This document shows positions 7,858-46,688 of a stretch of 64,000 nt of DNA, piece by piece. Where the stretch lies: NCBI RefSeq assembly GCF_032193765.1, contig NZ_JAVBIJ010000001.1, forward strand, positions 186,001 through 250,000, in the 5' to 3' direction. The notes beneath the pieces are model-generated. The model was not told the origin of the DNA, did no database searches, and saw nothing but the letters and a program-made list of their open reading frames with translations. Made by a program: the position numbers and the translations under genes. This DNA is from Rhodoferax potami (GTDB lineage Bacteria > Pseudomonadota > Gammaproteobacteria > Burkholderiales > Burkholderiaceae_C). How positions within the stretch are numbered: position 1 is the stretch's first letter; each line of letters begins with the position of its first letter.

Positions 7858-8979
7858 TTACATGGTGTAGCGGCGCAATTGCCGCCGGTCCCACCAATCC
7901 TTGAGCCAGTGCCAGGCACGCCCTGACGCGCTGTACCCTCCCCAGGCCATAACCGCCTGTTGTGAACCCCCGAACAGCAGTTGAAAGCCTGCCCCCGGCT
8001 GGCCGGTGGTGGCGGGTAAGCGCGCGCCGCGCGCCACGGCTTGCAGATGGCGCAGCGGGGAATCCAAATCGCCATTGGCGACCCACACTTGCGGATGGCT
8101 GCTGCTGCGCAAGTAGCCGTCGGTAGTCGCTTGGCCGTCAGCATTCAACGCAAGTCCACTGGCGGCCAGCCAAGCGTGTGGCAGGTGCTGCAAGGCCAAC
8201 AGCGGCACATCGCATGCGAGCTGCGCGCCGCACCCCAGATGCACCGCGCTGGCATCGATCTGGAGCGCCGTGTCGTGCAAAACCGTGATGCGCTGTGCCT
8301 TGAGTTGTTGCAGTAACCGGGTGATGCCCGCGGTGGCGAGCGGGGTACCGGCTGGAGACGGCAGCATCAACACCGTGACTGCGCAGGACGGGAGGCGCTG
8401 TTGCACCGCCAACGCCAATTCCAGCGCAGCCACTTGGTCGCCGATGACCGCTACGCGCAAGGCTTTTTTCGCCGCCAATTCGGACACACCTTGCCAGCGT
8501 TGGGCCCAGGTATCTAGCGGGTAGACGCAGAGGCCGAATTTTCCCGCGCCGGGTATGGTTTGTTCCAACTGCTCGTTGTGGTGCGCAGGGGCGGCATTGA
8601 TCGAAAGCCACTCGTAGTGCTGAGTGCTGCCATCATCGAGTGCCAGCGTTTGCTGCCCGGCATCCAGCGACACGGGCTGCTGTTGCAGCCAGCGGATGCC
8701 CGCACGCTTCACCAAAGGCTCTAGCGGGATGGTGCAGTCTTCTTGCTGGTAGTCGCCGGCAACCAGGCCCGGCCCCATGGCAGGGTGAACCACGTGGGTC
8801 TCTTCGGCTACCAGCGTCACCTGTACCTCGGGCAAGGGCTTGCGAGCCAGCGTGTGCAAAAGTTTCAGGTGCGCCATGCCGGCGCCCAACAGCACCAACT
8901 GCCGGGGTTGATTGCTCTGCGCTTCGGGCGATAGGTGTGTGTCTGCTGGGTCTGGGCGCTGCACTGCGGGTGCGTTCAT
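7858..8979 (-). CDS. FAD-dependent oxidoreductase, stand-alone paralogue of the SelD-fused domain
   Basis: 373 residues. It aligns by eye with the N-terminal half of the SelD fusion encoded two genes upstream: the FAD site LLGAGMAHLKLL corresponds to LVGGGHSHVVAL, GPGLVAGDYQQED to LPGYVAGHYSYDD, and both end with a W-x-KDW-x-DRR sequence (WLKDWWDRR here). The second dinucleotide-binding site, GGGAGG in the fusion, is degenerate here (GDQVAALE), so NAD(P)H binding may be weak or lost. It is the last gene of the eight-gene operon and starts four bases after the DUF3047 stop. Its reaction is unknown. Confidence 0.75.
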   Translation of the reverse strand: MNAPAVQRPDPADTHLSPEAQSNQPRQLVLLGAGMAHLKLLHTLARKPLPEVQVTLVAEETHVVHPAMGPGLVAGDYQQEDCTIPLEPLVKRAGIRWLQQQPVSLDAGQQTLALDDGSTQHYEWLSINAAPAHHNEQLEQTIPGAGKFGLCVYPLDTWAQRWQGVSELAAKKALRVAVIGDQVAALELALAVQQRLPSCAVTVLMLPSPAGTPLATAGITRLLQQLKAQRITVLHDTALQIDASAVHLGCGAQLACDVPLLALQHLPHAWLAASGLALNADGQATTDGYLRSSSHPQVWVANGDLDSPLRHLQAVARGARLPATTGQPGAGFQLLFGGSQQAVMAWGGYSASGRAWHWLKDWWDRRQLRRYTM

Positions 8980-8983
8980 GCCG

Positions 8984-9775
8984 CTATTGTTTCATGAGCT
9001 GCAGGCGGTTCACAAAACCGAGGCTGGTGCCGCCGGTGTTGTCGGCATCCGCGCCGGTCACGATCGCGAGCAAGGGCGGGACGGTGTCCGTCTCGTTGCC
9101 AAAGGCGGCCAGAAAATCGACCTGCAGATCCCGCTTGTGGGAGACCCAGCGGCCGAGCGCATCGCTGTTGCCATTCAGCACACGCAGCCGCACTCGGGCG
9201 GTGTACGCGTTGTTGAGGGTAGTGCCTGCGGGTAACTGGTTGTCCCACACGTAGCACAGGGTGGCACCGGGCAAGGCTTCTGCGCTCACCCGGCGGGCCA
9301 GGCGCAGCAGGTTGCGTTCGACAAAAGGGATTTTCTCCAGCGGCAAATCAAACAGCGCACACACCTTGAGGGCGGCATCATCTCCGCTTTTGCTGCGCAG
9401 GTCGGCCTGGGCCAGGGGTTGGTCAAGACGCCACTGCCATTGCAAATAGCGGCCTTCGCTACCCGCGGGAACCGCATGGCTCAGCGCGCCATAGCTTTTG
9501 TCGCTGCGCAGGCGCAGCACTTTTTGGCCGTCCAAGGTGGCGATGTCCGGTGCCAGCAGGGGAACCTTGCCACCGGGCAGGCCTACGACCCGCCAGGGGC
9601 TGGGGGGCGCGCCATCTGCCGAATCCGCCCAACTTTGCAGCAGACCCCCTGTGTTAGCGGGCTGGGTTTGCGCGTGGGCTCCTGTCAAGCTCGCACAGGC
9701 TGTGTATAGGAAAAATGCGGCAGAGGCCCAGGTTTTAATTGCGCGTGCTGCTATCTTTTTAGGAGTATTTCGCAT
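8984..9775 (-). CDS. Exported DUF3047 protein
   Basis: 263 residues with a signal peptide ending near ASLTGAHAQ, hence periplasmic or exported. The body matches the DUF3047 pattern as I know it: a W-x-V-GLPGGK opening, LRLRSDKSYGALSH, then YLQWQWRLD and a late YVWDNQLPAGT. No catalytic residues are known for the family. The ATG at 9775 lies inside the end of the selD fusion gene (17-base overlap), so expression is coupled to it. The first codons, encoding MRNTPKKIAARAIKT, derive from the dispersed repeat described at 9733-9770. The longer open frame to 10018 is a shadow of selD. Confidence 0.72.
   Translation of the reverse strand: MRNTPKKIAARAIKTWASAAFFLYTACASLTGAHAQTQPANTGGLLQSWADSADGAPPSPWRVVGLPGGKVPLLAPDIATLDGQKVLRLRSDKSYGALSHAVPAGSEGRYLQWQWRLDQPLAQADLRSKSGDDAALKVCALFDLPLEKIPFVERNLLRLARRVSAEALPGATLCYVWDNQLPAGTTLNNAYTARVRLRVLNGNSDALGRWVSHKRDLQVDFLAAFGNETDTVPPLLAIVTGADADNTGGTSLGFVNRLQLMKQ
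9733..9770 (-). repeat. REP-like repeat forming the start of the DUF3047 gene (half copy)
   Basis: On the minus strand AATACTCCTAAA, GATAGC and a CGCGC block appear in the same order and spacing as in the repeat at 44663-44720, where they also follow an ATG. Only the left half of the element is clear. It encodes residues 3-15 of the signal peptide. Confidence 0.55.
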
Positions 9776-12095
9776 CGGCTTCCTCCGGACGGATATGGAT
9801 ATGAACCGGGGCTGCGCCCGCAGCCAGCGTACGCACATGGCCGATGGCACAGGCCGCAGCGTAGCCTTGCGCACGCAGGTCGGCAAGGCACGCTGTTGCT
9901 TGGCTGGCGGGCACGCTGGCCAGCAGCCCGCCAGCGGTTTGCGGGTCCACCAGCAGCGGCCACAGCGGGTGGGCCATGGCCTCGGTGGCGTTGTGCACCA
10001 CATGCTGTTGGCGCGCATTGGCGCTGTGCAGGGAGCTCAGCAGGCCTTGTTGCACACACTCCAGCGCGCCGTCTAGCAGGGGCAGGGCAGCAGCATCCAG
10101 CACCACCTGCACGCCACTGGGGCGGGCCATCTCTACCGTGTGGCCTATGAGCCCAAAGCCGGTCAGGTCGGTGCAGGCGGTGGCGCCATAGGTGCGCAGT
10201 GTTTGCGCGGCGGCTTGGTTGCTTTGCACCATGCTTTGCAGGGCGGCTTGCACCCAGCGGCCTTTGGCGGCTGCACGACCATGCGCGGCAAACAAGGCAC
10301 CGGTGCCAATCGGCTTGGTCAGCAGCAGCACATCGCCGGGCTGCATGTCGCCCTTGCGCAGCACGCCCGTCATTTGCCCTTGATCGTTCACATCTACCAG
10401 GCCGTTTACTGCAAAGCCCAGTGCGAGCTCGGCGCCTTCACCGCTGTGCCCGCCGATCAGCGTGCATCCGGCCGCATTGAGCACCTCGACCGCGCCTTGC
10501 ATCATCTGGCGCAGGGTGGCTTCCACCTGCCGGTCCACGCCTGGGGGTACGGTGGCAATAGCGGTCGCGGTGTGCGGTTGCGCGCCCATGCCAAACAAGT
10601 CGCCCAGTGCATGGTTGGCGGCAATCCGGCCGAACACATACGGGTCGTCCACAAAGGCGCGGAAAAAGTCCACGCTGTGCACCAGCGCTTTGCCGGGCGG
10701 CACGCGCACGACGGCGGCATCATCCGGGCTGTCAAGGCCCAGCAGCACATCGGGGTTGGGTTGCACCCACAGGTTTTGCAGCGCACGCGAGAGCACGCTG
10801 GCTCCCACCTTGGCACCACAGCCGCCGCAGCGCATGGCGACTGCGGCTTGCGCTTGCTGAGCTTCGTCGGCGCTTAGCTGAATTAATGCGTTGGCGGATG
10901 TCGCGGCTGAAGTCATGCCCGCGAGCCCCTTCACGCCTTGCACGCTGAAGCGCTGCATAAAGCGGCGGTCTATCCAGTCCTTCCAGAGCCAGACCCATGC
11001 ACCGGCAAAGCCAAGTGCGCCGCGCGACGCCACGGCAAATTTGTCACCGGTGCTGATTAGCGCCAGCCAGTGGCGCTGCGGGCGGTAGGGCTGCGGGGGT
11101 AAGCCCTGGACCGCGCGCTGCAGGTTGATGGCCAGCGGCATGCCCATGCGCACTGCAAACACGCCGGCTTTCTCCAGCGCAAAGTTCTCCATGGCGGCCA
11201 CATCACCCGCGGCAAACACGCGCGGGTCGGTGATGCTTTGCAAGGTGTCGTGCAAGCGAATGCAACGGTTGTCTGTCAGGGCCAAGCCGGTGCCTTGCAG
11301 CCAGGTGCCGCCACCGGCTTGGGTAACCCAGAGCACGTCGTCAGCGTCAAACCACTCGCCCTTTGCGCTGCGTAGCCGGCCTGCCTCGACTTCGGCCACG
11401 GGCGTTTGCAAGTGCACCTGTACGCCTCGCTCGGCCAGTACTTCGGTAAATCGCCTCTGTACACCCGCGTTGTGGGTGGGCAGCAAGCCATCCGAAGTAA
11501 ACAAGTGGAATTGCGGCGCCAAGTTTGCGCGCCCTGCGGCTTGTGTCTCAGCACTCAGCCGGTACTGCATCGCCAGGCACAACTCCACGCCGCCCGCGCC
11601 ACCGCCCACGATGGCAATCGTCAGCGGCCGCGTAGCGTGCGCCACCTTGTCGAGCAACTGCAGCCAGCGCTGGTTGAAGCCGGTGATGGGTTTGACCGGT
11701 ACTGCGAATTCAGTGGCGCCCAATGCGCGCATCTGCGGCGTGGAGCCGGTGTTGATGGAGACCACGTCGTAGTCGATATCCGGCCGGCCGCGCAGCTGCA
11801 CCGTGCGCGCCTCGCGGTCCAAGCCCGTTACTTCGGCTTGGATGAAGCGCGCGCCGGTGGCTGCGCACAGGCGGCACAGGTCGATGTGCACATCGTCATA
11901 GCTGTAGTGCCCCGCCACATAGCCGGGCAGCATGCCGGAGTAGGGCGTGTGCGCGTCGGTACAAATCAGGGTGATGCGCACGCCGGGCAGTGGGTGCATG
12001 GCGAAGTAGCGCAGCGCCACCACATGGCTGTGGCCGCCACCCACCAACACGATGTCTCTAACGATGGGCGTGGCGGGTACTTGCATAGACCTCAA
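9759..12095 (-). CDS. selD: Oxidoreductase-selenophosphate synthase (SelD) fusion
   Basis: 778 residues, two enzymes in one chain. Residues about 12-405 form a FAD/NAD(P)-dependent oxidoreductase of the NDH-2-like group, with LVGGGHSHV for FAD, IVGGGAGGVELCLAM for NAD(P)H, FAAGDVAAM near the isoalloxazine site, and an end sequence WKDWIDRR. From about residue 430 it is selenide, water dikinase: GGCGAKV holds the catalytic Cys and Lys, GLDSPDDAAVV and SVDFFRAFVDDP the metal-binding Asp residues, and GGHSGEGAELALG and DLTGFGLIGH the ATP-site glycines. SelD makes selenophosphate from selenide and ATP for Sec-tRNA, 2-selenouridine or a Mo-enzyme selenium cofactor. No SelA, SelB or SelU gene is in this window. 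The start is one base after the upstream stop. Confidence 0.92.
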   Translation of the reverse strand: MRSMQVPATPIVRDIVLVGGGHSHVVALRYFAMHPLPGVRITLICTDAHTPYSGMLPGYVAGHYSYDDVHIDLCRLCAATGARFIQAEVTGLDREARTVQLRGRPDIDYDVVSINTGSTPQMRALGATEFAVPVKPITGFNQRWLQLLDKVAHATRPLTIAIVGGGAGGVELCLAMQYRLSAETQAAGRANLAPQFHLFTSDGLLPTHNAGVQRRFTEVLAERGVQVHLQTPVAEVEAGRLRSAKGEWFDADDVLWVTQAGGGTWLQGTGLALTDNRCIRLHDTLQSITDPRVFAAGDVAAMENFALEKAGVFAVRMGMPLAINLQRAVQGLPPQPYRPQRHWLALISTGDKFAVASRGALGFAGAWVWLWKDWIDRRFMQRFSVQGVKGLAGMTSAATSANALIQLSADEAQQAQAAVAMRCGGCGAKVGASVLSRALQNLWVQPNPDVLLGLDSPDDAAVVRVPPGKALVHSVDFFRAFVDDPYVFGRIAANHALGDLFGMGAQPHTATAIATVPPGVDRQVEATLRQMMQGAVEVLNAAGCTLIGGHSGEGAELALGFAVNGLVDVNDQGQMTGVLRKGDMQPGDVLLLTKPIGTGALFAAHGRAAAKGRWVQAALQSMVQSNQAAAQTLRTYGATACTDLTGFGLIGHTVEMARPSGVQVVLDAAALPLLDGALECVQQGLLSSLHSANARQQHVVHNATEAMAHPLWPLLVDPQTAGGLLASVPASQATACLADLRAQGYAAACAIGHVRTLAAGAAPVHIHIRPEEADAKYS

Positions 12096-12096
12096 T

Positions 12097-14280
12097 TCAG
12101 CTTCGCTTCCAGTCGTGGAACTTGCGCACCCATTCCAGCAGCTTGTGCGGCTGGTGCGCGCGCTTCCATTCGCCGGCGGCGTATTTGTTGGCTTCGGCCA
12201 GTGTGGGGTAGGTGTGGATGGTGCCCAGAATCTTGTTCAGGCCCAAGCCGTGTTTCATGGCAAGCACGTACTCGGCCAGCAGGTCGCCGGCATGGGTGCC
12301 GACAATGGTTACGCCCAGAATCTTGTCTTTGCCCGGCACAGTCAGCACTTTCACAAAGCCGTGGGCCTCGCTGTCTGCAATCGCGCGGTCCAGGTCGTCA
12401 ATTCCGTACTTGGTCACCTCGTAGGCAATGCCTTGTTCTATGGCGTCCTGCTCGTTCAAACCGACGCGCGCGACTTCCGGGTCGATGAAGGTGGCCCAAG
12501 GGATGACCGAGTAATCGGCTTTGAACTTCTTGAAGTCGCCGAACAGCGCATTCACCGCCGCATACCAAGCTTGGTGCGCGGCTACGTGGGTGAACTGGTA
12601 GGGGCCGGCCACATCACCCGCCGCAAAGATGTTGGGGTAGATGGTTTGCAGGTACTCGTTGGTCTGCACCGTCTTGTGAGTGGGGATACCCAGCTCTTCC
12701 AGTCCGTAGCCTGAGAGTCGGGCGGTGCGGCCCACTGCGCACAGCAGTTGATCAAACGCAATGCGCTTTTCGACGCCAGCGTGTTCCACCACCAACACCT
12801 TTTCGCCATCCACCATCTCACAGCGCATGGCCTTGTGGCTGGTCAGCAGGTCCACGCCATCGGCGCGTAGCGAGTTGGCGGCGAGTTCAGACACTTCCAT
12901 GTCTTCCCGCGCCATGATGCGCGGCGCCATTTCCACTTGGGTCACGGCAGAGCCGAGGCGTGCAAAGCTTTGTGCCAACTCACAGCCAATCGGCCCGCCG
13001 CCCAACACCACCAGGCGCTTGGGTACCTCGTCCAGCTTGGCGAACTCGTCCCACAGTGTGTCGCTGGTCACATAGCCCACCTCGTCCAGACCCGGCAGGG
13101 GCGGGACGAAGGGGCGGGCGCCTGCCGCAATCACGATATTGCGGGTGGTCAGGGTCTGCGTGCCGCCGTCGTTGAGCGCGATCTCTACCGTCCAAGGGTT
13201 GATGATCTTGGCGTAGCCCTGCAGCACTTCCACACCCAGGCCGGTGTAGCGCTCCACGCTGTCGTGCGGCTCAATGGCGGCAATCACCTCGTGGATGCGC
13301 TGCATCACCTTTTTGAACGAAAAGAGGCTCTGGCGCTCGTCAGATGTGCGCGGGCTGCTATGTAAACCATAGCGGTCTGCGTGCTGCATCTGATGGGCCA
13401 GTTTGGCGCTTTTAATCAGTGCTTTGCTGGGCACGCAGCCGTAATTCAGGCAGTCGCCACCCATCTTGTGGGCCTCCACCAGTGTGACCTTGGCTTTGAC
13501 CGCCGCCGCAATGTAGGCCGACACCAGCCCACCGGCGCCACCGCCGATCACGATAAGGTTGCGGTCAAAAGTTTGGGGACGCACCGCTTTCCAGCGGGCG
13601 TAGACCTTGCGTTTTTGCACCAGGTTCATGAGGGCCTTGGCGATCAGGGGAAATAGGCCGAGCAGTACCAACGCGCCCAGCACCTCGGGGCTTGCGACAT
13701 CCTTGAGCGACTGCAGTTCTGCCAGCCGGGTGCCGGCATTCACATAAACAGCAGTGCCTGCCAGCATGCCGAGTTGGCTCACCCAGTAAAAGGTGCGTGT
13801 GCGCAGGGTGGTCAAGCCCATCAGCAGGTTGATCACAAAAAAGGGCACGACCGGAATCAGCCGCAGGCTAAACAGGTAAAGCGCGCCATCCCGGGCAATG
13901 CCTTGATTGATCTCGGTCAGCCGGCTTCCGAAGCGGGCTTGTACCGCGTCGCGCAGCACAAAACGCGCAGCCAGAAACGACACCGTGGCCCCAACGCTTG
14001 AGGCAAACGACACCAGCAACAAGCCCCATCCCAAGCCGAACACCCCGCCCCCCGCGAGCGTGAGAATGGCCGCGCCCGGCAGCGACAACGAGGCCACCGC
14101 CACATACACCGCAAAAAAGCCGGCGCGCAGAGACCACGGGTTCTCTGCGTAAGCGCTTGCCAGCGAGGCTTGGCTCTGGCGCAGAGCGTCCAGACTCAGG
14201 TAGCGACCCAAGTCCAACACGACGAAGCTGGTAATTGCCAGCCCGATCAGGGCCAGCACCAGGAGTTTGGATGCCTTCAT
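12097..14280 (-). CDS. VTT-domain membrane protein fused to mercuric reductase-like disulfide oxidoreductase
   Basis: 727 residues. Residues 1 to about 225 are a TVP38/TMEM64 (VTT, DedA-like) membrane domain with five or six hydrophobic helices and the family's glycine-rich re-entrant pattern (LTLAGGGVFGLGWG). Residues about 238-727 are a complete class I pyridine nucleotide-disulfide oxidoreductase: FAD site VIGGGAGGLVSA, redox-active cysteines in GGDCLNYGCVPSK (near 273-285), NAD(P)H site VVLGGGPIGCELA, and FAAGDVAGPYQFTH. The C-terminal HTYPTLAE segment supplies the active-site His of dihydrolipoamide or mercuric reductases. No extra N- or C-terminal cysteine pair typical of true MerA is seen, so mercury reduction is not implied. 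It is in the middle of the eight-gene operon. Confidence 0.87.
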   Translation of the reverse strand: MKASKLLVLALIGLAITSFVVLDLGRYLSLDALRQSQASLASAYAENPWSLRAGFFAVYVAVASLSLPGAAILTLAGGGVFGLGWGLLLVSFASSVGATVSFLAARFVLRDAVQARFGSRLTEINQGIARDGALYLFSLRLIPVVPFFVINLLMGLTTLRTRTFYWVSQLGMLAGTAVYVNAGTRLAELQSLKDVASPEVLGALVLLGLFPLIAKALMNLVQKRKVYARWKAVRPQTFDRNLIVIGGGAGGLVSAYIAAAVKAKVTLVEAHKMGGDCLNYGCVPSKALIKSAKLAHQMQHADRYGLHSSPRTSDERQSLFSFKKVMQRIHEVIAAIEPHDSVERYTGLGVEVLQGYAKIINPWTVEIALNDGGTQTLTTRNIVIAAGARPFVPPLPGLDEVGYVTSDTLWDEFAKLDEVPKRLVVLGGGPIGCELAQSFARLGSAVTQVEMAPRIMAREDMEVSELAANSLRADGVDLLTSHKAMRCEMVDGEKVLVVEHAGVEKRIAFDQLLCAVGRTARLSGYGLEELGIPTHKTVQTNEYLQTIYPNIFAAGDVAGPYQFTHVAAHQAWYAAVNALFGDFKKFKADYSVIPWATFIDPEVARVGLNEQDAIEQGIAYEVTKYGIDDLDRAIADSEAHGFVKVLTVPGKDKILGVTIVGTHAGDLLAEYVLAMKHGLGLNKILGTIHTYPTLAEANKYAAGEWKRAHQPHKLLEWVRKFHDWKRS

Positions 14281-14290
14281 AGGGCTTCTT

Positions 14291-14896
14291 TCAAGAAAAA
14301 GTGCGCCAACCCCACCAGATGCGGGTGGCAGTGGTCACCGCACACAGCGCGGCGAACAGGTAGGCCAATGTCGCAAAGTGCGCAGGCCATAGGCACATGG
14401 CCACAAAAAAGGCCAGTGTTTCGGTGGCTTCGGTCAGGCCACCCAAAAAGTAAAACGATTTGTCGGGGTAGGCCAGGTTGTCCATGCCGCGCTTGGCGGC
14501 CAGTGTCGCAAACGCCAGAAAGCTGCTGCCGGTGCCAATGAAGGCGGCCAACAAGGCTGCTGCGGGCAGGGCGTTGGTAGTGGGCTCTGCCACCGCAAAG
14601 GCGAGCGGGATGCTGGCGTAAAACAAAAAGTCCAGCGAGATATCGAGAAAACCGCCCGCATCCGTAGGCTGGGTTTCGCGGGCCACCGCACCATCCAGTC
14701 CGTCTAGTAGTCTGGAGGTTAAAAGGGCGATAGCGCCCGCCGCGTATGCGCCATTAGCTATCAAAATTGCAGCAACAATGCCGACTCCAAATCCGGCCAG
14801 CGTGACGGCATTCGCACCCACGCCAGCGCGCACCAGCAGGCGTGCCATGGCCTGCAGGGGCGTGCGCAGCAAGGGCGTGGCAAAACGGTCCAGCAT
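14291..14896 (-). CDS. CDP-alcohol phosphatidyltransferase (YnjF-like)
   Basis: A 201-residue integral membrane enzyme of the CDP-alcohol phosphotransferase family, which transfers a phosphatidyl group from CDP-diacylglycerol (or a similar donor) to an alcohol. The metal-binding signature D-x2-DG-x2-AR...D-x3-D is clear as DGLDGAVAR at about residues 64-72, followed by GGFLDISLDF; the gap between AR and G is one or two residues shorter than in most members. Four to six hydrophobic helices follow. Its place after the ABC permease and ATPase genes matches E. coli ynjF. Part of its coding sequence (residues about 43-59) comes from a dispersed repeat read in frame. The accepting alcohol is unknown. 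Confidence 0.82.
   Translation of the reverse strand: MLDRFATPLLRTPLQAMARLLVRAGVGANAVTLAGFGVGIVAAILIANGAYAAGAIALLTSRLLDGLDGAVARETQPTDAGGFLDISLDFLFYASIPLAFAVAEPTTNALPAAALLAAFIGTGSSFLAFATLAAKRGMDNLAYPDKSFYFLGGLTEATETLAFFVAMCLWPAHFATLAYLFAALCAVTTATRIWWGWRTFS
14719..14768 (+). repeat. REP-like repeat read through inside the CDP-alcohol transferase gene
   Basis: On the plus strand it shows TTAAAAGGGCGATAGCGC, then TATGCGCC, then TTAGCTATCAAAATT, in the same order and spacing as the intergenic copies at 28375-28433 and 31688-31752 (AAAAG...TAGCGC...TATGCGC...TAGCTA). It adds no stop codon in the gene's frame and encodes an Ala/Ile-rich helix. Confidence 0.65.
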
Positions 14897-14902
14897 GGCG
14901 GC

Positions 14903-15454
14903 TCAGGGCAGCAGGTCGGCGACGCCGTCCCACACCTCAGGGGCCAGGCGACCTTCAAATCGCTGCAATACCCGCCCCTTGCTATCGATCAGCAAAGTCA
15001 GCGGCAAACGGGTGCCGGCGGGGAGCTCTTCTTCCATGCGCACCGACAGCAGGCCTTTGGCGTTCATCTGGGTCTGGCCCACCAGCTTTTCATAGGTTTG
15101 CCAATCGCTGGCTTTGCGGTCCAGGTTCACCAGCAAGAGGCTGAAGGGCTTGTTTTTCCAGCCATTCAGGTTGGCGCGCAATTCGGGCAGGCTGTCGCGG
15201 CAGACAGCGCAGTCGGTGTTCCAGAAAAAGGCGACTGTGACAGTGCCGTCCAGCGCTTGGGTGCTGAAGCGCTGCCCATTGGCATAGACCGCCGGCAACT
15301 GCAGCCGGTTGCCATTCGCTATGGCTGTCGATCCCGCGGCGGGGGGTGTTGTGGATTGCGCTGCCGCGTTGAAGGCCATGCCCAGGCTGCAGGCGAATGC
15401 CAGAAGGCCGGTCAGGGCAAGGCGGAGCCAAGGGGCGGTGGAGGTGTGGGGCAT
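14903..15454 (-). CDS. TlpA-like periplasmic thiol:disulfide redoxin
   Basis: 183 residues with a signal peptide (hydrophobic core LALTGLLAFACSLGMAF, cleavage near NAAAQS). The thioredoxin fold is marked by VAFFWNTDCAVCRDSLPELR: a CxxC active site (CAVC) at about residues 77-80, and a later segment with cis-Pro-like LPLTLLID. It would reduce or oxidise periplasmic thiols, or deliver electrons to partners such as cytochrome c maturation factors. It starts 55 bases after the ATPase stop and ends six bases before the transferase gene. It occupies the position of the rhodanese gene ynjE in the E. coli ynj operon. Confidence 0.78.
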   Translation of the reverse strand: MPHTSTAPWLRLALTGLLAFACSLGMAFNAAAQSTTPPAAGSTAIANGNRLQLPAVYANGQRFSTQALDGTVTVAFFWNTDCAVCRDSLPELRANLNGWKNKPFSLLLVNLDRKASDWQTYEKLVGQTQMNAKGLLSVRMEEELPAGTRLPLTLLIDSKGRVLQRFEGRLAPEVWDGVADLLP

Positions 15455-15509
15455 GCAGCGAGTCTACGGTGAAGCGGGCTGGTGGTTGGTCGCCGGTGCG
15501 CGCATTTCC

Positions 15510-16148
15510 TTACACCGCGCCGGCTGTGTCCAAGCGGGTGAGGTGTTGGGGGTCGGCGACATCGGCCAGATCGTGGGTTACCAGCAGCGCCGGAATGGCA
15601 CGCCGCGCCACCAGCCCGAACACCAGGGCGCGCATGCGTTCGCGCAGGGCCGCGTCGAGTTTGGAGAAGGGCTCGTCCAGCAGCAAACAGCGGGGCTGGG
15701 CCAGCAGGGCCCGGGCCAAGGCCACGCGCGCCCGTTGCCCGCCGGAGAGGCGGGCGGGGTTAGCGTGCAAAAACTCCCGCATTTCCACATCGTCCAATGC
15801 GGCTTCCACCGCCCGCTCGCGCGTTTGGCGCTCGCCAGCGGGTATGGCGAACAACAGGTTTTCGCGCACGGTCATGTGGGCAAACAGCAGGTCGTCCTGA
15901 AACAAGAGCCCGACCCGGCGCGCCTGCACCGGCAGAGACTCGATACGCTGGTCAGTGAGCGTCACGCGGCCGTCCCACAGCATGCCGGCATCCAGCGTGC
16001 CACACACGGCAGCCAGCACGCTGCTTTTGCCGCAGCCGCTGGGCCCCATGAGGGTGTGCACCTTGCCGGCTGGCACATGGATGTGCAGGCCCCGCAGCAA
16101 GTCACCGGCAGGGCTGGCCAGTTGGGTGATATGGATATCCAGACTCAT
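15510..16148 (-). CDS. ABC transporter ATP-binding protein (YnjD-like)
   Basis: 212 residues, a compact ABC ATPase that powers the permease encoded just upstream (4 bases apart). Walker A is GPSGCGKSS (about residues 35-43), the signature LSGGQRARVALARALL (near 134-149), Walker B CLLLDEPFSKLD, and the switch His is in LLVTHDLADV. The short length and the pairing with a double-size permease match YnjD of E. coli and ThiQ-type ATPases. The substrate of Ynj transporters is not established. Confidence 0.87.
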   Translation of the reverse strand: MSLDIHITQLASPAGDLLRGLHIHVPAGKVHTLMGPSGCGKSSVLAAVCGTLDAGMLWDGRVTLTDQRIESLPVQARRVGLLFQDDLLFAHMTVRENLLFAIPAGERQTRERAVEAALDDVEMREFLHANPARLSGGQRARVALARALLAQPRCLLLDEPFSKLDAALRERMRALVFGLVARRAIPALLVTHDLADVADPQHLTRLDTAGAV

Positions 16149-16152
16149 GGGT

Positions 16153-17823
16153 TTATTGTGCCGCCGCAGGCCAGCGGCGGGGCCGGCCCGACCAGGCGGC
16201 CAGGCCGAACATCAGCATCGGTAACAGCCATTGCAGCCATGCGAACGCAGCAGTCAACGCGCGCTGCCCGCCGGAGGCCAGGGTGACCGCCTCGGTAGTG
16301 ACCGTCTGAAACCGCCCGGCCCCGACGTACAAGGTCGGCAGGTACTGCGCCACGCTCACCGCAAAGCCGACCGCTAGCGCCGCTGCCAGCGCGCTGCGCA
16401 AAAGCGGCCATTTCACTTGCCACAAAAACGCTGCCCGGCTGCGCCCCAGGGCTGCACTCACCTGCAGGAGGCGCGGATCGACACCCCCGTAAGGGCCTTG
16501 CAGCGCAATCAGCACATACGGCAAGGCACTCAAGGTGTGCGCCAGCCAGAGGCCGGCAGCTTGCCCATCAAGCCCCCAGGCCAAGCTGAGGCGGTGCAGA
16601 CCCACCACCCAGAGCACTGCGGGCAGCACCAAAGGCAGCATCCAGACCGGTCGCATGCGCCGCTGCCAGCCAAGCGGCGCCCACTCCAACCAAGCCACCA
16701 CCCAGGCCAGTGCGGTGGCCGCACTTAACAGTCCCAAACCGAGAGTGATCCAAACCGTGCGGCTGCTGCGCAGTACGCCCTCCCAGGCATGGAGGGTCCA
16801 GACCTCCGGCAAAAGGGCCGGAAAAGGCCAGGGCCCTGAGACGCTGCCTGTTGCGAGGGCGGCCAGCACCGCGACATAGACGCCCAAGAGCGCTGCCAAA
16901 GGGGCGCTTACGGCATCGGGCTTACGCACTGTGATGGAGTACTGCGCAAGCGTGACGCCGCGCACCTGACGCTGGCGCCACAGGGGCCAGGCCCTCCAAG
17001 CCACCAGCGCACCGGCGCACCCGAGCAGCACCGCCGCCAGCAGCCAGGCGGCGCTGGCGCCTTGGGCATTGATGGCAGGGTCCGCATCTTGCAGCCACTG
17101 CCAGGCGAGCACCGACAGGGTGGGGGGCGCAGTCGGCCCGATAACCAGCGCCATATCCACCACCGTCAGGCTATAGGCCAGCACCGCCAGCAATGGGGCT
17201 GTGAGGTGGCGCACCAGCTGTGGCCAGCCGATGCGCCACCAGGCTTGCGCATCGCTGTAGCCCCAGGTAGCTGCCAAGCGCAAGGACTGGCGCAGCTGCG
17301 CCTGCACACCCGGCTGCTGCACATAGGCCAACGCGGCCCAGAGTAAAAAAGGCACCTCTTTCAACACCAGCACCGCTATCAGGCCCAGGCCCCAAGGGTC
17401 TTGGGTCGTGGCCCAAGCGGGCGGAGACTCCAGCCCGCTGGGCCAGGGTGATATGAGCCGCAACAGCCACCCCCCGGGCGCGAGCAGGGCCACCATGCCA
17501 ATGGCAAACGCCGCATGGGGTACCGAGAGCAAGGGGGACATCCAGCGGGCCCATTTATCCAGCCCTTGTGCGGTGCCGGTGGGCGCCAACCAGCGCGCCA
17601 GAATGCATGCGGTGATGCCGGTGGCCAGCAGGGTCGCACTCAGGCCGGTCCAGATCGTCATGCCCAAGGCGGGCCAGGTTTGTGGGTGTTGCAACAGGGC
17701 GGCCCACGCCGGCGCTTGCATGCCAAAAGGCACGGTGCTGCCCACCGCCCACAGCAAGGGTCCGGCTACGAGTAACAGCAGTGCAAAAGGAACTAGGTGG
17801 CGCGAAAGGCGTGCGACGGGCAT
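16153..17823 (-). CDS. ABC transporter permease, fused two-domain (YnjC-like)
   Basis: A 556-residue permease with two BPD-type membrane domains in tandem (about residues 45-270 and 330-545), as in YnjC, ThiP and FbpB. Around 11-12 hydrophobic helices can be counted. The EAA-like loops are LRLAATWGYSDAQAWWRIGWP in the first half (seen across about residues 180-202) and VSAALGRSRAAFLWQVKWP in the second. It is the first gene of the eight-gene operon. No binding-protein gene is next to it; a YnjB-type protein is at 40599-41798. Confidence 0.83.
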   Translation of the reverse strand: MPVARLSRHLVPFALLLLVAGPLLWAVGSTVPFGMQAPAWAALLQHPQTWPALGMTIWTGLSATLLATGITACILARWLAPTGTAQGLDKWARWMSPLLSVPHAAFAIGMVALLAPGGWLLRLISPWPSGLESPPAWATTQDPWGLGLIAVLVLKEVPFLLWAALAYVQQPGVQAQLRQSLRLAATWGYSDAQAWWRIGWPQLVRHLTAPLLAVLAYSLTVVDMALVIGPTAPPTLSVLAWQWLQDADPAINAQGASAAWLLAAVLLGCAGALVAWRAWPLWRQRQVRGVTLAQYSITVRKPDAVSAPLAALLGVYVAVLAALATGSVSGPWPFPALLPEVWTLHAWEGVLRSSRTVWITLGLGLLSAATALAWVVAWLEWAPLGWQRRMRPVWMLPLVLPAVLWVVGLHRLSLAWGLDGQAAGLWLAHTLSALPYVLIALQGPYGGVDPRLLQVSAALGRSRAAFLWQVKWPLLRSALAAALAVGFAVSVAQYLPTLYVGAGRFQTVTTEAVTLASGGQRALTAAFAWLQWLLPMLMFGLAAWSGRPRRWPAAAQ

Positions 17824-33492: not shown

Positions 33493-34755
33493 TCAATACG
33501 GGTGTACCGCACCCGCCCACGCTAGCCCGGCGGCTACACTGCCAAAGCGGTTGCCTTCCACCAGCGTGGCTTGAGGCATGGCCGCGCGAAGCGCTGCTAT
33601 CAAGGTGCGCAGTGCGGACGAGCCACCGGTCAGGTACACCGCGTCCACCGCGCTTAAGCCCGCAGCGGCCACGCAGTCCTGGGCGCACTGCACCACCTGC
33701 GCTAGTGAGGCGTGCAGGGCGGCTTCCATGTTCACCGCATCCACCGTGGGGGCCAGGCTCCGGTCCAGAAAGTCGAGGTTCACCACCGCGCCATCACCGC
33801 TGATGGAGCAGGCAATCTTGGCGGCTTCCACGCTGGCCAGCATGCGGTGGCCGTGCTGCTCTTCCAGCGCATCCATCAGGCGGCGGTGCAGCGCCTGGTC
33901 GGTGTAGTCGGTCCACAGCTCTTTGGCAAAGTGCATGGACTTGCGGGTGTAGGCCTGGTGAATCAGGTGCCAAGTGCTCAGGTCAAAAAACACGCTGCTG
34001 GGCACAATGCGCCCGCCAGTGCCCACGTGCTTGTAGCCCAAGTGGGGCATCACAGTGGTCAGGTCCAGCAAGCGGTCAAAGTCGGTGCCGCCAATGTGCA
34101 CGCCGGTGGTGGCCAGAATGTCTGCGGTGCGGTCGCCCTGCGCGCTGCGCTCGGGGTTGAGGCGAATGACGGTGAAGTCGGAGGTGCCGCCGCCAATGTC
34201 GACCACTAGCGCGGTGGTCTCTTTGGCTACGCGCTGCTCGTAGTCCAGCGCAGCGGCAATCGGTTCGAGCTGGTAGGCAATGTGGGTGAAGCCGGCCTCC
34301 AATGCGGCGCGGCCCAGTGTTTCTTGCGCCAGCTGGTCGCGCTCGGCGTCATCGTCCACAAAGTGCACCGGGCGGCCCAGCATGGCGTGGGTCAGGGGCT
34401 GGCCCACATGGGCTTCGCAGCGGCGCTTGAGCTCTTTGAAGAATAGCACCACGATGTCAAAAAAGCGGATGCTCTTGTCGCCCACGGCGGTGTACTCGTC
34501 CATCAGGCGGCTGCCCATCAGGCTTTTGAGCGAGCGCAGCAAGCGCCCCTCTGTGCCATTCAGGTAGGCCTGCATGGCCTCTGCGCCATAGAGCACGGAA
34601 TGCGTTTCGCTGGCAAAAAACAGGGCGGTGGGCATCTCGGCCTTGGCGCCGTCCAGCGGGATCACCTGCAAGGCGCCTTGCGCGTCAATCAGTGCACAGG
34701 CGGAATTCGAGGTGCCGAAGTCAATGCCCAGCACGAGGGGGCGAGCAGTCTCCAT
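33493..34755 (-). CDS. Hsp70-like ATPase, YegD type
   Basis: 420 residues. The actin/Hsp70 ATPase fold is clear: phosphate loop 1 GIDFGTSNSACAL (residues 10-22), connect/phosphate 2 VVDIGGGTSDFTVI (near 206-219) and the adenosine motif YLTGGSSALRTL (near 381). There is no C-terminal peptide-binding domain, as in E. coli YegD, so it is not a standard DnaK chaperone. The ATG at 34755 overlaps the esterase TGA (TGATG), so the two are coupled. The stop codon lies at the edge of a REP-like repeat. Client or role unknown. Confidence 0.85.
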   Translation of the reverse strand: METARPLVLGIDFGTSNSACALIDAQGALQVIPLDGAKAEMPTALFFASETHSVLYGAEAMQAYLNGTEGRLLRSLKSLMGSRLMDEYTAVGDKSIRFFDIVVLFFKELKRRCEAHVGQPLTHAMLGRPVHFVDDDAERDQLAQETLGRAALEAGFTHIAYQLEPIAAALDYEQRVAKETTALVVDIGGGTSDFTVIRLNPERSAQGDRTADILATTGVHIGGTDFDRLLDLTTVMPHLGYKHVGTGGRIVPSSVFFDLSTWHLIHQAYTRKSMHFAKELWTDYTDQALHRRLMDALEEQHGHRMLASVEAAKIACSISGDGAVVNLDFLDRSLAPTVDAVNMEAALHASLAQVVQCAQDCVAAAGLSAVDAVYLTGGSSALRTLIAALRAAMPQATLVEGNRFGSVAAGLAWAGAVHPY

Positions 34756-35426
34756 CACGCGGGCAGCACCTGCTTCAAAAAGGCGGCAATGTCAGCAATC
34801 TCACGCGGGTGCACGCTGTGCGGCATGGGGTAGGTGTGCCACTGCACCGGGTGGCCGAGGGCGGCCAGTGCGTCGCGCGAGTCTTCGCCGCGCTTCAAGA
34901 TCACCACCGGGTCTTGGGTGCCGTGGGCCATGAAGATGGGGGTAGTCGCATTGGCGGCGTTGCGCTCGGTGGCAAAGCGGTCTGCCAGCGGCAGGTAGCC
35001 GGACAGGGCCATCACACCCGCAATTTTGTGTGGCAGGCGCAGCGCGGTGTGCAGTGCCATGGCGCAGCCTTGGCTAAAACCCGCCAATACGATGTGATCG
35101 GCCGCGATGCCACGGGCCACTTCGCGCTCCACCAAGGCCGCAATCGCCGCCTCAGAGCGCTGGATGCCCGCCGCGTCCTGCTTGCTTACCAGGTCCATGC
35201 CATACAGGTCGTACCAGCCGGGCATCACATAACCGCCGTTGATGGTGATCGGGATGCTGGGCGCCTGCGGAAACACAAAGCGGATAGGCTGGCAACCGTC
35301 CAAGTCCAGCTCGGGCACCAGGCCTGCAAAGTCATCGCTGGTGGCGCCCAGCCCGTGCATCCAGATGACGGCGGCCGTGGGGTTGGGGGCGGATTCGAGT
35401 TCGATGCAGTCGAGCAGGGCAGTCAT
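34755..35426 (-). CDS. Carboxylesterase/phospholipase of the dienelactone-hydrolase-like group
   Basis: 223 residues, alpha/beta hydrolase of the Abhydrolase_2 (acyl-protein thioesterase-like) family. Motifs: WMHGLGATSDDF (oxyanion), AGFSQGCAMALH (GxSxG, Ser near 115), HGTQDPVV (Asp near 168) and PMPHSVHPREI (His near 200). Typical substrates are short-chain esters or lysophospholipids. The ATG at 35426 is the family start; an open frame to 35504 overlaps the divergent transporter promoter. Operon with the Hsp70-like gene. Confidence 0.88.
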   Translation of the reverse strand: MTALLDCIELESAPNPTAAVIWMHGLGATSDDFAGLVPELDLDGCQPIRFVFPQAPSIPITINGGYVMPGWYDLYGMDLVSKQDAAGIQRSEAAIAALVEREVARGIAADHIVLAGFSQGCAMALHTALRLPHKIAGVMALSGYLPLADRFATERNAANATTPIFMAHGTQDPVVILKRGEDSRDALAALGHPVQWHTYPMPHSVHPREIADIAAFLKQVLPA

Positions 35427-35494
35427 GGCGCGGGCCTTGGTATTGAATTTGGGAGACGGGTTTATACCCGAGTTGCAGCGGTTATCGTCAAGGC

Positions 35495-36379
35495 ATGTCT
35501 TCACACCGCTTTCATCATGTGCTGCCTTTGTTGGCGGTTTTGGGTTCTGTCACCGCCTTGGGGCTGGGCACGTCGATCGCCAAACAGCTCTTTCCCGTGG
35601 TCGGGTCCCTGGGCACCACGGCCTTGCGCGTGGGCTTTTCGGCGCTGCTGCTTTTGCTGATCTGGCGGCCCTGGCGCTGGGCACTGGCGCCGGCCGACCG
35701 CATGTCACTGCTGCGTTACGGCGTGGCGCTGGGGCTGATGAACTTGCTGTTTTACATGTCGCTACGCACGATTCCGTTTGGCATTGCAGTGGCGATTGAG
35801 TTTTCGGGGCCTTTGGCGGTGGCGCTGTATTCGTCGCGCAAGCCGGTGGACTTTGTGTGGCTGGCGCTGGCGATTGCGGGTCTGGGCCTATTGCTGCCGT
35901 TCGGCGGCAACGTGCAGTCGCTGGATGTGACCGGTGTGCTCTATGCCCTGGCCGCCGCCGCGTTTTGGGGTGCTTACATCGTGTTCGGCAAGCGGGTGGG
36001 CCATTTGCACGCAGGCCACTCGGTGGCACTGGGGCTCACGGTGGCCGCCATCACCGTGGTGCCCTTCGGAGTCTGGCACGCGGGTGCAGCCCTGCTGGAT
36101 CCACATGTTTTATTGATCGGGCTGGTGGTGGCCGCGATCTCCAGCGCCCTACCTATCTCGCTGGAGATGGTGGCCCTCAAGCGCCTGCCGCAAGAGGCCT
36201 TCGGCATCATGACCAGCATGGAGCCGGCGGTGGCGGCCTTGTTAGGTCTGATGTTGCTCCATGAGCAACTCAGTGCCCAGCAGTGGTGGGCCATCGTGTT
36301 CATCATGGGTGCTGCAGCGGGCAGCGCGGTCACTGCCAAGCGCGAGCCGCCGGCGGTTGCAGCCGGTCTCGTGCAGTAA
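35495..36379 (+). CDS. EamA/DMT-family exporter, RhtA-like
   Basis: 294 residues, ten membrane helices in two EamA repeats (about 10-140 and 150-285). LGLGTSIAKQLFPVVGSLGTTALRVG at residues 22-47 and the late segment SSALPISLEMVALKRLP match RhtA, which exports threonine, homoserine and other amino acids. The start lies 68 bases from the divergent esterase start. The substrate is inferred from family only. Confidence 0.85.
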   Translation: MSSHRFHHVLPLLAVLGSVTALGLGTSIAKQLFPVVGSLGTTALRVGFSALLLLLIWRPWRWALAPADRMSLLRYGVALGLMNLLFYMSLRTIPFGIAVAIEFSGPLAVALYSSRKPVDFVWLALAIAGLGLLLPFGGNVQSLDVTGVLYALAAAAFWGAYIVFGKRVGHLHAGHSVALGLTVAAITVVPFGVWHAGAALLDPHVLLIGLVVAAISSALPISLEMVALKRLPQEAFGIMTSMEPAVAALLGLMLLHEQLSAQQWWAIVFIMGAAAGSAVTAKREPPAVAAGLVQ

Positions 36380-40598: not shown

Positions 40599-41798
40599 TC
40601 ATGCCCCGTAGCGCTTGGTCCATTCCTTTTCCAGCGCATCCACCCAGCTACCGTGGGGCTCTGGAATAGCAGGTGCCGGCTTTTCTACTTGGCCGGGCAA
40701 AGGCTTGGCCGCGAATGCAGCGCGCTCGCTGGCGCTGAGCTTGTCGAGCGCGAGCACCGTCGGGTCGCCCCAGACAGAAATGTCAGCCTTGCGGGCTTGC
40801 GCCTCTGCGCTGAGCAAGAAGTTGGCAAATACCTGCGCGCCTTCTTTGGCAGTCGCGTTCACAGGAATCGCGACGAAGTGCGTATTACCAATTGTTCCGC
40901 TACTGAATTGATAGCTGGTGATGCTCGCAGGAAGGCGCTTGGCGGCGATTTCGTTCGCAGCGTCGTTGGGGTTGAAGGTGATTGCAATCGCCACTTCGCC
41001 ATCGGCCAGCATCTGGCGGATCGCCTCGGCGTTGTTGGGGAACTGCTTGCCGCCGCGCCACAGGTGCGGGTGCATCTGGTCCAGCGCTGCCCACAGGGGG
41101 GCGGTGGCTTTGGTAAACGCGTCTGGGGTGACTGGTTTGTAGAGCGCGTCGCGGTTGGCGTTCACATCCATCAGCACTTGCTTCAAGAAGGTGGTGCCGT
41201 GGAAGTTGGGCGGGCGCGGGTAGGTCACGCGGCCGGGGTTGGATTTGGCAAAGGCTTGCAGCTCGGCCAGGTTTTGTGGCGGCTTGGGGGTGCGCTTGCT
41301 GTCGACCATGAAGGTCAGCTGTGCCATGCCCCAGGGAGCCTCCAGGCCATCGGTAGGCTCGGCAAAGTCGAGGCGGGTGGTGGGTTTGCCTTGCACGTCC
41401 ACTTTGGCATACGAGGGCAGGCTTTCTGCAAAGGGCCCGAAGAGCAGGCCCTCGCGCTTCATGGTCAAAAAGTTTTCACCGTTGATCCACACCATGTCCA
41501 CGCTGCCATTGGTTTTGCCAGCGGCTTTTTCGTTGCGCACCCGCTTGATCATGTCGGGTGCGTCGGCAATTTTGACGTGCTGCACTGTCACGCCAAAGCG
41601 CTTTTGCGCCTCGCCCGCGGCCCACTGGATGTAAGCGTTGATGGTCTCCGACCCGCCCCAAGCATTGAAGTACACCGTTTGCCCTTTGGCTTTGGCTTCA
41701 ATGGCAGACCAGGCGGGGGTGGATTGGGCGAAGGCGGGAGGCGCGAGTGCGGCAGCAGTGCCGGCGATCAGTTGGCGACGTGCGATGCGAAGAGTCAT
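40599..41798 (-). CDS. ABC transporter solute-binding protein, YnjB type
   Basis: 399 residues with an RR signal sequence (RIARRQLIAGTAAALAPPAFA) that suggests Tat export to the periplasm. Segments FNAWGGSETINAYIQW, VDMVWINGENFLTMK and SSGTIGNTHFVAIPVNA match E. coli YnjB as I recall it (FNAWGG, VDLLWVNGENF, GTIGNTHFVAIP). YnjB is the binding protein of the YnjBCD importer. The permease and ATPase of that type are 23 kb away at 15510-17823. No other transporter gene is adjacent. The ligand is unknown. Confidence 0.83.
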   Translation of the reverse strand: MTLRIARRQLIAGTAAALAPPAFAQSTPAWSAIEAKAKGQTVYFNAWGGSETINAYIQWAAGEAQKRFGVTVQHVKIADAPDMIKRVRNEKAAGKTNGSVDMVWINGENFLTMKREGLLFGPFAESLPSYAKVDVQGKPTTRLDFAEPTDGLEAPWGMAQLTFMVDSKRTPKPPQNLAELQAFAKSNPGRVTYPRPPNFHGTTFLKQVLMDVNANRDALYKPVTPDAFTKATAPLWAALDQMHPHLWRGGKQFPNNAEAIRQMLADGEVAIAITFNPNDAANEIAAKRLPASITSYQFSSGTIGNTHFVAIPVNATAKEGAQVFANFLLSAEAQARKADISVWGDPTVLALDKLSASERAAFAAKPLPGQVEKPAPAIPEPHGSWVDALEKEWTKRYGA

Positions 41799-41868: not shown

Positions 41869-43137
41869 TTAAGCCAGCAAGGCTTGTGCAAATTCCCGAG
41901 CGTTGAAGGTTTCCAGCTCATCAAGCTTCTCGCCCACCCCGATGAAGTACACCGGAATCGGCCGCTCGCGGGCGATGGCCGCCAGCACGCCGCCCTTGGC
42001 GGTGCCGTCCAGCTTGGTAACGATCAGGCCGGTGAGGCCGAGCGCGTCGTCGAACGCTTTGACCTGCTGCACTGCGTTCTGGCCAGTGTTGCCATCGATC
42101 ACCAGCAGCACTTCGTGCGGGGCAGTGCCGTCGGCTTTGGCGATCACGCGTTTGATCTTCTTCAACTCTTCCATCAGGTGCAGTTGGGTGGGCAATCGGC
42201 CCGCGGTGTCGACCAGCACCACATCTTTGCCGCGCGCTTTGCCGGCGGTGACCGCGTCGTAGCTCACCGCAGCGGGGTCGCCACCTTCTTGGCTGACGAT
42301 CTCGACCGTGTTGCGGTCAGCCCAGACGGTGAGCTGCTCTCGCGCTGCTGCGCGGAAGGTGTCTGCAGCTGCCAGTAAGACGCTCGCGTTGCTGTCGGCC
42401 AAATGCTTGGTTAACTTGCCGATGCTGGTGGTTTTGCCCGCACCGTTGACGCCTGCCACCATCACCACGGTGGGCGTGTGCTCGCCGATCACCAGGGACT
42501 TTTGCAGGGGTTGCAGCAGCTCGGTGAGCTCGGCAATCAAAATATTTTTCAGCGCCGTCGGGTGGGTCACGCCGGTCGCTTTGACTTTGCGGCGCAGGGC
42601 CGCCGTCAGGTGCTCGGTGGCGGATACGCCCGCATCGGCCATCAGCAGGGCGCCTTCGAGGTCTTCGTAAAGCGCCTCATCAATCTGGGTGCCGACGAAA
42701 ACACCGGAGATGCTGCTCGCGGTTTTGCCCAGACCGGCTTTGAGCTTGTCGAGCCACTTCTGGCGCTCAGGCGGTGTAGCCGGTGGCTCGGGGATCTCAA
42801 TCGGCGCCACCAAGGCGCTGCCAATCAGCGAGCCAGTGCCCCAGGCAGGCGGCGGCGAAGCGGGTGCTGTTTGCACGGCCTGCACGGGTGCCGCTGCAAC
42901 AACGGCGGGCGCCGCAGGGCTGGCTGGTGCAGTGTTCACCGCTGCGGGTACAGGTACAGCTGGGGCTGTGTCAGGCAGCGCGGCGGGCGATGCAGCTGGC
43001 GTGGCCGGGGCAGAAGCCGTGGGCAGTGCCGGGGCGGCTGGCGATGGGGATTCGGCGGCCAGAGGCGCGTCGGGCGCTACCGCTTCAGGGGCCGGAGTCG
43101 TCGAGGAAAAGAATTTCTTTTTGAAAAAACTGAACAT
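41869..43137 (-). CDS. ftsY: Signal recognition particle receptor FtsY
   Basis: 422 residues. The SRP receptor docks ribosome-bound SRP at the inner membrane. A disordered Ala/Pro/Val-rich stretch (about 15-110) replaces the acidic A domain, followed by the N domain (120-205) and the G domain: GVNGAGKTTSIGKL (G1), DTAGRLPTQ (G3), TKLDGTAKGG (G4) and the C-terminal helix. It is divergent from the M16 peptidase gene with only 28 bases between the starts, so promoters must overlap the coding ends. Confidence 0.96.
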   Translation of the reverse strand: MFSFFKKKFFSSTTPAPEAVAPDAPLAAESPSPAAPALPTASAPATPAASPAALPDTAPAVPVPAAVNTAPASPAAPAVVAAAPVQAVQTAPASPPPAWGTGSLIGSALVAPIEIPEPPATPPERQKWLDKLKAGLGKTASSISGVFVGTQIDEALYEDLEGALLMADAGVSATEHLTAALRRKVKATGVTHPTALKNILIAELTELLQPLQKSLVIGEHTPTVVMVAGVNGAGKTTSIGKLTKHLADSNASVLLAAADTFRAAAREQLTVWADRNTVEIVSQEGGDPAAVSYDAVTAGKARGKDVVLVDTAGRLPTQLHLMEELKKIKRVIAKADGTAPHEVLLVIDGNTGQNAVQQVKAFDDALGLTGLIVTKLDGTAKGGVLAAIARERPIPVYFIGVGEKLDELETFNAREFAQALLA

Positions 43138-43165
43138 GAGTGCGTTTCTAGAATCACAGCATTCT

Positions 43166-44644: not shown

Positions 44645-44659
44645 GCACTACACGACACC

Positions 44660-46012: not shown

Positions 46013-46021
46013 GCTCACTCC

Positions 46022-46666: not shown

Positions 46667-46688
46667 GCCCCTTTGAGAAGGCCCTGCC

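Follow-up and report, generated by a model that had tools for sequence, protein, structure and literature searches.

What brings a fused-permease ABC importer, a phosphatidyltransferase, several redox proteins and SelD together in one operon? The question is raised by eight minus-strand genes (7858–17823) of Rhodoferax potami, located in a 64,000-nucleotide stretch of contig NZ_JAVBIJ010000001.1 (positions 186,001 to 250,000), the whole of which was analysed and is referred to here as the window. Our answer, which we judge to be equally likely right or wrong, is that the cluster is a module for chalcogen import and reduction that feeds SelD, the imported substrate being putative; the selenium link of the module is moderately supported. 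In this proposal, the binding protein YnjB, encoded 23 kb upstream, would pass a chalcogen compound on to YnjCD, which would import it at the expense of ATP, and a VTT (DedA/TVP38) protein fused to a disulfide reductase (VTT reductase), the NADH-dehydrogenase-like (NDH) proteins and a redoxin would keep the imported chalcogen, or whatever carries it, in reduced form. Reduced selenium would reach SelD from the NDH domain with which it is fused, a step that earlier authors have proposed for such a domain (passages of PMC2432076). SelD would then make selenophosphate, which SelU would spend on selenouridine in tRNA. We infer the substrate and the direction of electron flow; the gene content, conservation, intact motifs and the single SelD found together with SelU are observed. 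If correct, the module would explain how selenium is taken up and made ready for use in some bacteria, with possible roles for the poorly understood YnjBCDF proteins, VTT::disulfide-reductase fusions, DUF3047 and the SelD-fused NDH domain.

The operon and its SelD fusion

The selenium link begins with the NDH::SelD fusion, which is the single SelD match of its own genome at E 1e-40. Both of its domains exceed the curated cut-offs (TIGR03169, 470 bits against 310; TIGR00476, 290 bits against 125), and it falls under the cut-off of the fusion_not_SelD model TIGR04369 (454 bits vs. 700). The SelD is of the Cys type and retains the sequence CGGCGAK, within which we presume the catalytic Cys and Lys to lie. 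SelU is present in the same genome, in which SelA and ArsS/DUF3641 gave no match and SenB none over its cut-off (best match 34 bits, cut-off 300). Given that SelD and SelU are present and that SelA, SenB (over its cut-off) and ArsS were not found, selenouridine in tRNA is the likely use of selenophosphate here, as judged from gene content.

The eight open reading frames (ORFs) are laid out as a single unit, as the sequence-only reading had described, with gaps in gene order of 4, 55, 6, 10 and 1 nucleotides (nt), then a 17-nt overlap and a final gap of 4 nt (Table 1). Its domain identities also agree with the Pfam and TIGR calls, the permease (no Pfam match at E 0.001) being recognized by its identity to Escherichia coli YnjC and placed in an 18-row alignment (A1). 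Two of the distances depend on the choice of start codon. The 1-nt gap before the NDH::SelD gene, measured from a TTG at 12095, becomes 10 nt if the equally possible ATG at 12086 is used, and the overlap depends on the DUF3047 start at ATG 9775, which is preceded by GGAGGA and is preferred to the over-extended ORF from 10018 given by the mechanical call. The motifs that we take to be catalytic are intact in SelD (GCGAK), the reductase (GDCLNYGC and HTYPTLAE), the redoxin (CAVC) and the transferase (CDP-OH motif). Just upstream of 17823 lies a GC-rich hairpin with a stretch of T behind it (seen by eye in the sequence, with no terminator scan run), which fits a transcript beginning at the permease. 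The last gene of the operon, left without a clear description by the sequence-only reading, is a diverged copy of the NDH domain that is fused to SelD.

Conservation of the cluster and of its SelD neighbours

A scan with one peptide pattern from the YnjC alignment confirmed at least 583 relatives, of which the best 80 were kept (L160–L239). Their neighbours were called by a simple script, and the counts in the 80 loci, zeros included, are lower bounds: all 80 YnjC loci were confirmed by tblastn, yet the script called YnjC in 71, and it missed the SenB of L159, which tblastn recovered. On these calls, YnjB was present in 56 loci, YnjD in 55, YnjF in 54, the VTT reductase in 43, NDH in 20, DUF3047 in 17, SelD in 16, TIGR04282/04283 glycosyltransferases in 5, DUF547 in 4, and SenB and the redoxin in 2 each; SelU, SelA, SenA and ArsS were called in none of the 80 (flanks of up to 10 kb). 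A yardstick of 52 queries over the same loci gave 13 and 11 for the M16 peptidases, 12 for an HSP70-like protein and 11 for an esterase, with queries outside the cluster and the YnjB-side synteny genes reaching at most 6. The grouping of YnjC, YnjD, YnjF and the VTT::disulfide reductase is found in numerous Burkholderiales and beyond them in some bacteria, and DUF3047 and a standalone NDH-like protein are frequently part of it.

The sequence-only reading had allowed that unrelated genes might have been grouped in one transcript by chance, should homologues rarely be adjacent elsewhere; the neighbourhood check found them often adjacent. The counts rule out such a grouping for every gene other than the redoxin, and we regard it as next to negligible overall: numerous genera carry a similar set, as does E. 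coli for part of it, whereas window genes that belong to neither the cluster nor its synteny block recur in 5 of the 80 loci at most. The 64 scanned loci from which SelD is missing are all that was found in its favour.

The wider cluster extends beyond the operon. Cluster genes adjoin one or more members of a neighbouring block in 13 of the 80 loci; this block comprises two M16 peptidases, PF03602 and PF01467 (which we take to be RsmD and CoaD, respectively) and is found at 42689–47174 in the window. The fullest cases, L169 and L178, have CoaD-RsmD-M16-M16 followed, on the opposite strand, by YnjB-esterase-HSP70-YnjC-YnjF-VTT reductase. This order and orientation are retained in the window, where the esterase and HSP70-like genes are likewise located between YnjB and YnjC, but the YnjB-esterase and HSP70-YnjC intervals contain additional genes. 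Because the order is kept around inserted genes, the operon would seem to form the downstream portion of an ancestral Ynj cluster that has been stretched. The YnjB gene, which was missed by the sequence-only reading and lies on the same strand as the operon but not within it, likely encodes the partner of the operon's YnjCD and would complete the importer. The module as a whole would comprise YnjB-esterase-HSP70-like-YnjC-YnjD-(redoxin)-YnjF-VTT::disulfide reductase-(NDH::SelD)-DUF3047-NDH, members in parentheses being variable.

SelD lies within 10 kb of YnjC in the 16 loci noted above, where chance would give about 0.4 (a Poisson expectation only, which ignores kinship), and 10 of the 16 are not among the six loci nearest to the window. 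Its placements differ: inside the operon; as an opposite-strand fusion that comes after DUF3047 (L187, with SenB, and L192); or as a standalone gene on the opposite strand after NDH (L175, and L204 with SenB). In L226, from a betaproteobacterial metagenome-assembled genome (MAG), and L228, from Hydrogenophaga taeniospiralis, two glycosyltransferases and a SelD fusion come after an E. coli-like YnjBCD, on the strand opposite to it. Such varied positions, strands and forms point to more than inherited synteny. On the YnjC tree, SelD adjacency requires at least 10 changes against a shuffle mean of 16.6 (0 of 500 shuffles as low), a count made by a quick method and inflated by contigs cut at their ends; inheritance accounts for part of the adjacency and regain or loss for the rest. 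The two glycosyltransferases of L226 and L228, which stand between YnjBCD and the SelD fusion, are TIGR04282/04283 homologues in loci where no ArsS was found, and may act on a selenosugar or a lipid.

The association extends to whole genomes. In a class-wide draw of 370 genomes, own genome included, YnjB was found in 15, SelD in 92 and both in 12 (Fisher p 7e-6, ignoring kinship). One of these genomes, G151, holds SenA, SenB, SelD, NDH, DUF3047, the VTT reductase, YnjF, YnjC and YnjB within ~16 kb, with other genes interspersed. The 50 more distant loci of the 80 lie in genomes of which 38 contain SelD; it is present for 28 of the 32 loci with YnjF vs. 10 of the 18 without (p 0.017, a value that leans on cut contigs), making for a weak link between YnjF and SelD in these loci.

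Closer to the window, 40 regions from its relatives were mapped, 20 picked for the SelD fusion and 20 picked without it. Among the former, the fusion directly follows the VTT reductase in 10, while in 4 the fusion is followed by NDH but no VTT reductase was called ahead of it (two of these lie at the start of a contig) and 6 carry the fusion elsewhere, 4 of them beside SenA, SenB or EgtD homologues (L057, L058, L060, L061). Sister genomes place the same neighbours beside SenB/SenA (selenoneine). Several of the regions picked without the fusion contain YnjC, YnjF, the VTT reductase or NDH and no selD, which marks SelD as a variable member of the cluster. Of the sulfur- or selenium-related import linked to selenophosphate that the sequence-only reading had suggested, the selenium link is strengthened by the SelD and selenoneine neighbours and by the excess of SelD among YnjB genomes, and weakened by this variability.

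Table 1. Genes of the operon and of the wider cluster in the window
Feature	Position	Strand	Evidence and remarks
YnjC-type fused ABC permease, 556 aa	16153..17823	-	35% identical to E. coli YnjC (527 columns)
YnjD-type ABC ATPase, 212 aa	15510..16148	-	PF00005; 49.5% identity to YnjD over 198 columns
TlpA-like redoxin	14903..15454	-	PF08534/PF00578; WNTDCAVC motif; one N-terminal transmembrane-like window; probably exported
YnjF-type CDP-alcohol phosphatidyltransferase	14291..14896	-	PF01066; CDP-OH motif; 54% identity to YnjF
VTT (DedA/TVP38) fused to class I disulfide reductase	12097..14280	-	PF09335, PF07992, PF02852; GDCLNYGC, HTYPTLAE
NDH-like FAD domain::SelD	9759..12095	-	TIGR03169 470 bits, TIGR00476 290 bits; GCGAK
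DUF3047	8984..9775	-	PF11249; predicted beta-rich fold, model pLDDT (predicted local distance difference test) 83.8; probably exported
Standalone diverged NDH-like flavoprotein	7858..8979	-	PF07992; TIGR03169 167 bits, under cut-off 310
YnjB-type solute-binding protein	40599..41798	-	48.6% identity to E. coli YnjB; NF008633 527.7 bits, cut-off 203; synteny
Esterase of the putative ancestral cluster	34755..35504	-	319 bits to Abhydrolase_2 protein of L071; same place in relatives
HSP70-like protein of the putative ancestral cluster	33493..34758	-	PF00012; same place in relatives

The remaining members are less readily assigned. The redoxin, found in the window, in its close relatives L048, L049 and L051, in the two scanned loci and weakly in L109, is limited to a few close lineages. 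YnjF would be a lipid head-group enzyme by family; its role and that of DUF3047, whose model gave weak matches to carbohydrate-binding modules and glycosidases, are not firm. A DUF547 homologue follows the VTT reductase in L177, L209, L212 and L113, in the position held by DUF3047 in other loci, which suggests that the two are interchangeable partners. Past the downstream end of the operon, an MscS-type gene is followed by an ABC-2 type membrane protein (PF12698, 4225–6159, minus strand) with homologues in 13 other fetched loci, mostly shortly after NDH and often with an Mpo1-like gene (11 loci) in between; it is possibly an exporter of the cluster.

Points against the proposed selenium module, and its rivals

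A number of observations weigh against a module that feeds SelD. The 64 loci without SelD, some of them cut by contig ends, are the majority, some of the SelD adjacency, being clustered on the YnjC tree, is simply inherited, and synteny alone can yield counts like SelD's, as with the M16 peptidase that adjoins YnjB in 13 of the 80 loci. Three of the 15 YnjB genomes (G103, G329 and G361) have no SelD match, and in just two of the 12 with both genes are these close together (11.7 kb apart in G151, 30 kb in the window's own genome), with SelD far off in two others and on another contig in eight. SelD was also not matched in 12 of the 50 distant-locus genomes, namely seven alphaproteobacteria (a class that we presume for some of them) and Aliagarivorans, in whose loci no YnjF was called, and four MAGs of unstated completeness. 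Standalone TIGR03169 proteins of at least 230 bits occur in 15 of the 370 genomes, 7 with SelD and 8 without it; NDH and the VTT reductase stand beside ArsS in the SelD-less genomes G249 and G356; and the fused NDH domain has no column Cys in over half of 50 rows. The YnjB model (pLDDT 90.6) matches the folds of many type II binders (sugar, polyamine, iron, metal-citrate, sugar-phosphate and dinucleotide), which names no ligand. Finally, phosphate transporters take part in selenite entry into E. coli, according to passages of PMC8981825. Sulfate, molybdate and phosphate binders are not among the fold matches listed, which is evidence for neither side, and sequence searches returned no solved relatives of YnjB (E 0.01) or DUF3047 (E 1).

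Two narrower ideas about the NDH proteins were tried and set aside. That NDH exists only for SelD is not borne out by the 8 of 15 genomes with standalone TIGR03169 and no SelD, nor by G029. A catalytic-cysteine mechanism of the fused domain is unsupported, the fused rows being without a conserved cysteine: one column Cys is present in 93% of 28 standalone NDH rows from relatives and in 20% of the 50 fused rows. In G029, where neither SelD nor SelU was detected, a diverged NDH directly precedes the ABC-2 protein (L116).

The cluster could instead be a general sulfur or thiol module (envelope redox or persulfide). YnjBCD would then take in a sulfur compound or some different solute, and SelD would have joined only to be expressed along with a reductant that it shares. 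We hold this to be doubtful, albeit with evidence of its own. The cluster occurs without SelD in G361 (VTT reductase-DUF547-YnjB-C-D-YnjF) and G329 (YnjB-C-D-YnjF), and the E. coli set includes YnjE, which we take to be a rhodanese. In passages on E. coli, a genetic-interaction network groups ynjABCDEFI with sufCDS (PMC3930520), and the envelope-stress regulator BaeR modestly induces ynjABCD (PMC2731931). A purely sulfur role would not, however, predict SelD and Sen neighbours in several arrangements, nor the SelD excess in YnjB genomes.

Another rival, which had escaped the sequence-only reading, is an organo-arsenic or glycolipid pathway. Arsenosugar chemistry of the ArsS type would here draw on NDH and the VTT reductase, the product of YnjF and the glycosyltransferases would be a lipid or a sugar, and SelD would be incidental. 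ArsS homologues are clustered with NDH and the VTT reductase in L078–L081 (four genomes from the window's taxonomic order) and in L149 and L151 (two SelD-less genomes from its class), and glycosyltransferases of TIGR04282/04283, families named for arsenosugar biosynthesis, lie beside YnjBCD in the 5 scanned loci and in G376. Against this, ArsS was not matched in the window's own genome and was called in none of the 80 YnjC flanks, and the operon itself contains no glycosyltransferase; we consider the pathway improbable.

Relation to known systems

Two components of the proposed selenium module are already known. Passages of PMC2432076 and PMC4561486 describe an NADH-dehydrogenase-like::SelD fusion with the same domain order and a Cys-type SelD; the fusion in the window differs in its setting, a Ynj importer cluster in which it is accompanied by another, diverged copy of NDH. 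The VTT::disulfide reductase is of the same type as the COG0398 DedA protein fused to PF07992-PF02852, the most common fusion of that subfamily, for which passages of PMC10127716 give no link to YnjBCD or SelD. The senABC selenoneine cluster (passages of PMC10891094 and PMC9814287) is approached by G009, G003 and G039, where fusions 61–63% identical to that of the window stand beside SenB/SenA/EgtD genes, unlike the window's genome, where no SenB exceeds the cut-off. An ABC-transporter ATPase is among the genes near orphan selD in a 2016 survey (passages of PMC5029168), and the passages found in the open-licence PMC literature hold no description of YnjBCD or of the cluster as a selenium system.

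The closest counterpart is the ydjXYZ-ynjABCDE/ynjF stretch of E. coli K-12, which, like the window, brings together YnjB, YnjC, YnjD and YnjF homologues and VTT proteins. The sequence-only reading had noted the ynjC-ynjD-ynjE-ynjF order, and this holds for YnjC, YnjD and YnjF (identities in Table 1); its proposal that the redoxin replaces YnjE was not upheld, given the redoxin's presence in 2 of 80 loci. It had also overlooked the likeness of the VTT half to YdjX (32.6% identity) and YdjZ. The E. coli stretch differs in its two separate VTT proteins, its additional YdjY, YnjA and YnjE (no match among window ORFs at E 1e-4) and its unfused SelD, and has no annotated disulfide-reductase half, NDH or DUF3047, whereas in the window YnjB is split from the other Ynj genes by inserted genes. 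The FNR regulon table of PMC3688515 holds ydjXYZ-ynjABCD and ynjE, the latter directly activated, and these data and the sufCDS grouping would fit the selenium module without deciding for it. A bolder extension, which we put forward tentatively and think rather unlikely, is that YnjBCD and its VTT redox partners form the long-missing dedicated system for selenium uptake and reduction (selenite or organoselenium, possibly a selenosugar), and that the FNR-controlled ydjXYZ-ynjABCD of E. coli is the same, serving anaerobic selenoenzymes. The importer lies beside selD in several lineages and with selenoneine genes in some, and its counterpart in E. coli K-12, where selD is 5.6 kb from ynjF, makes the question testable in a laboratory strain.

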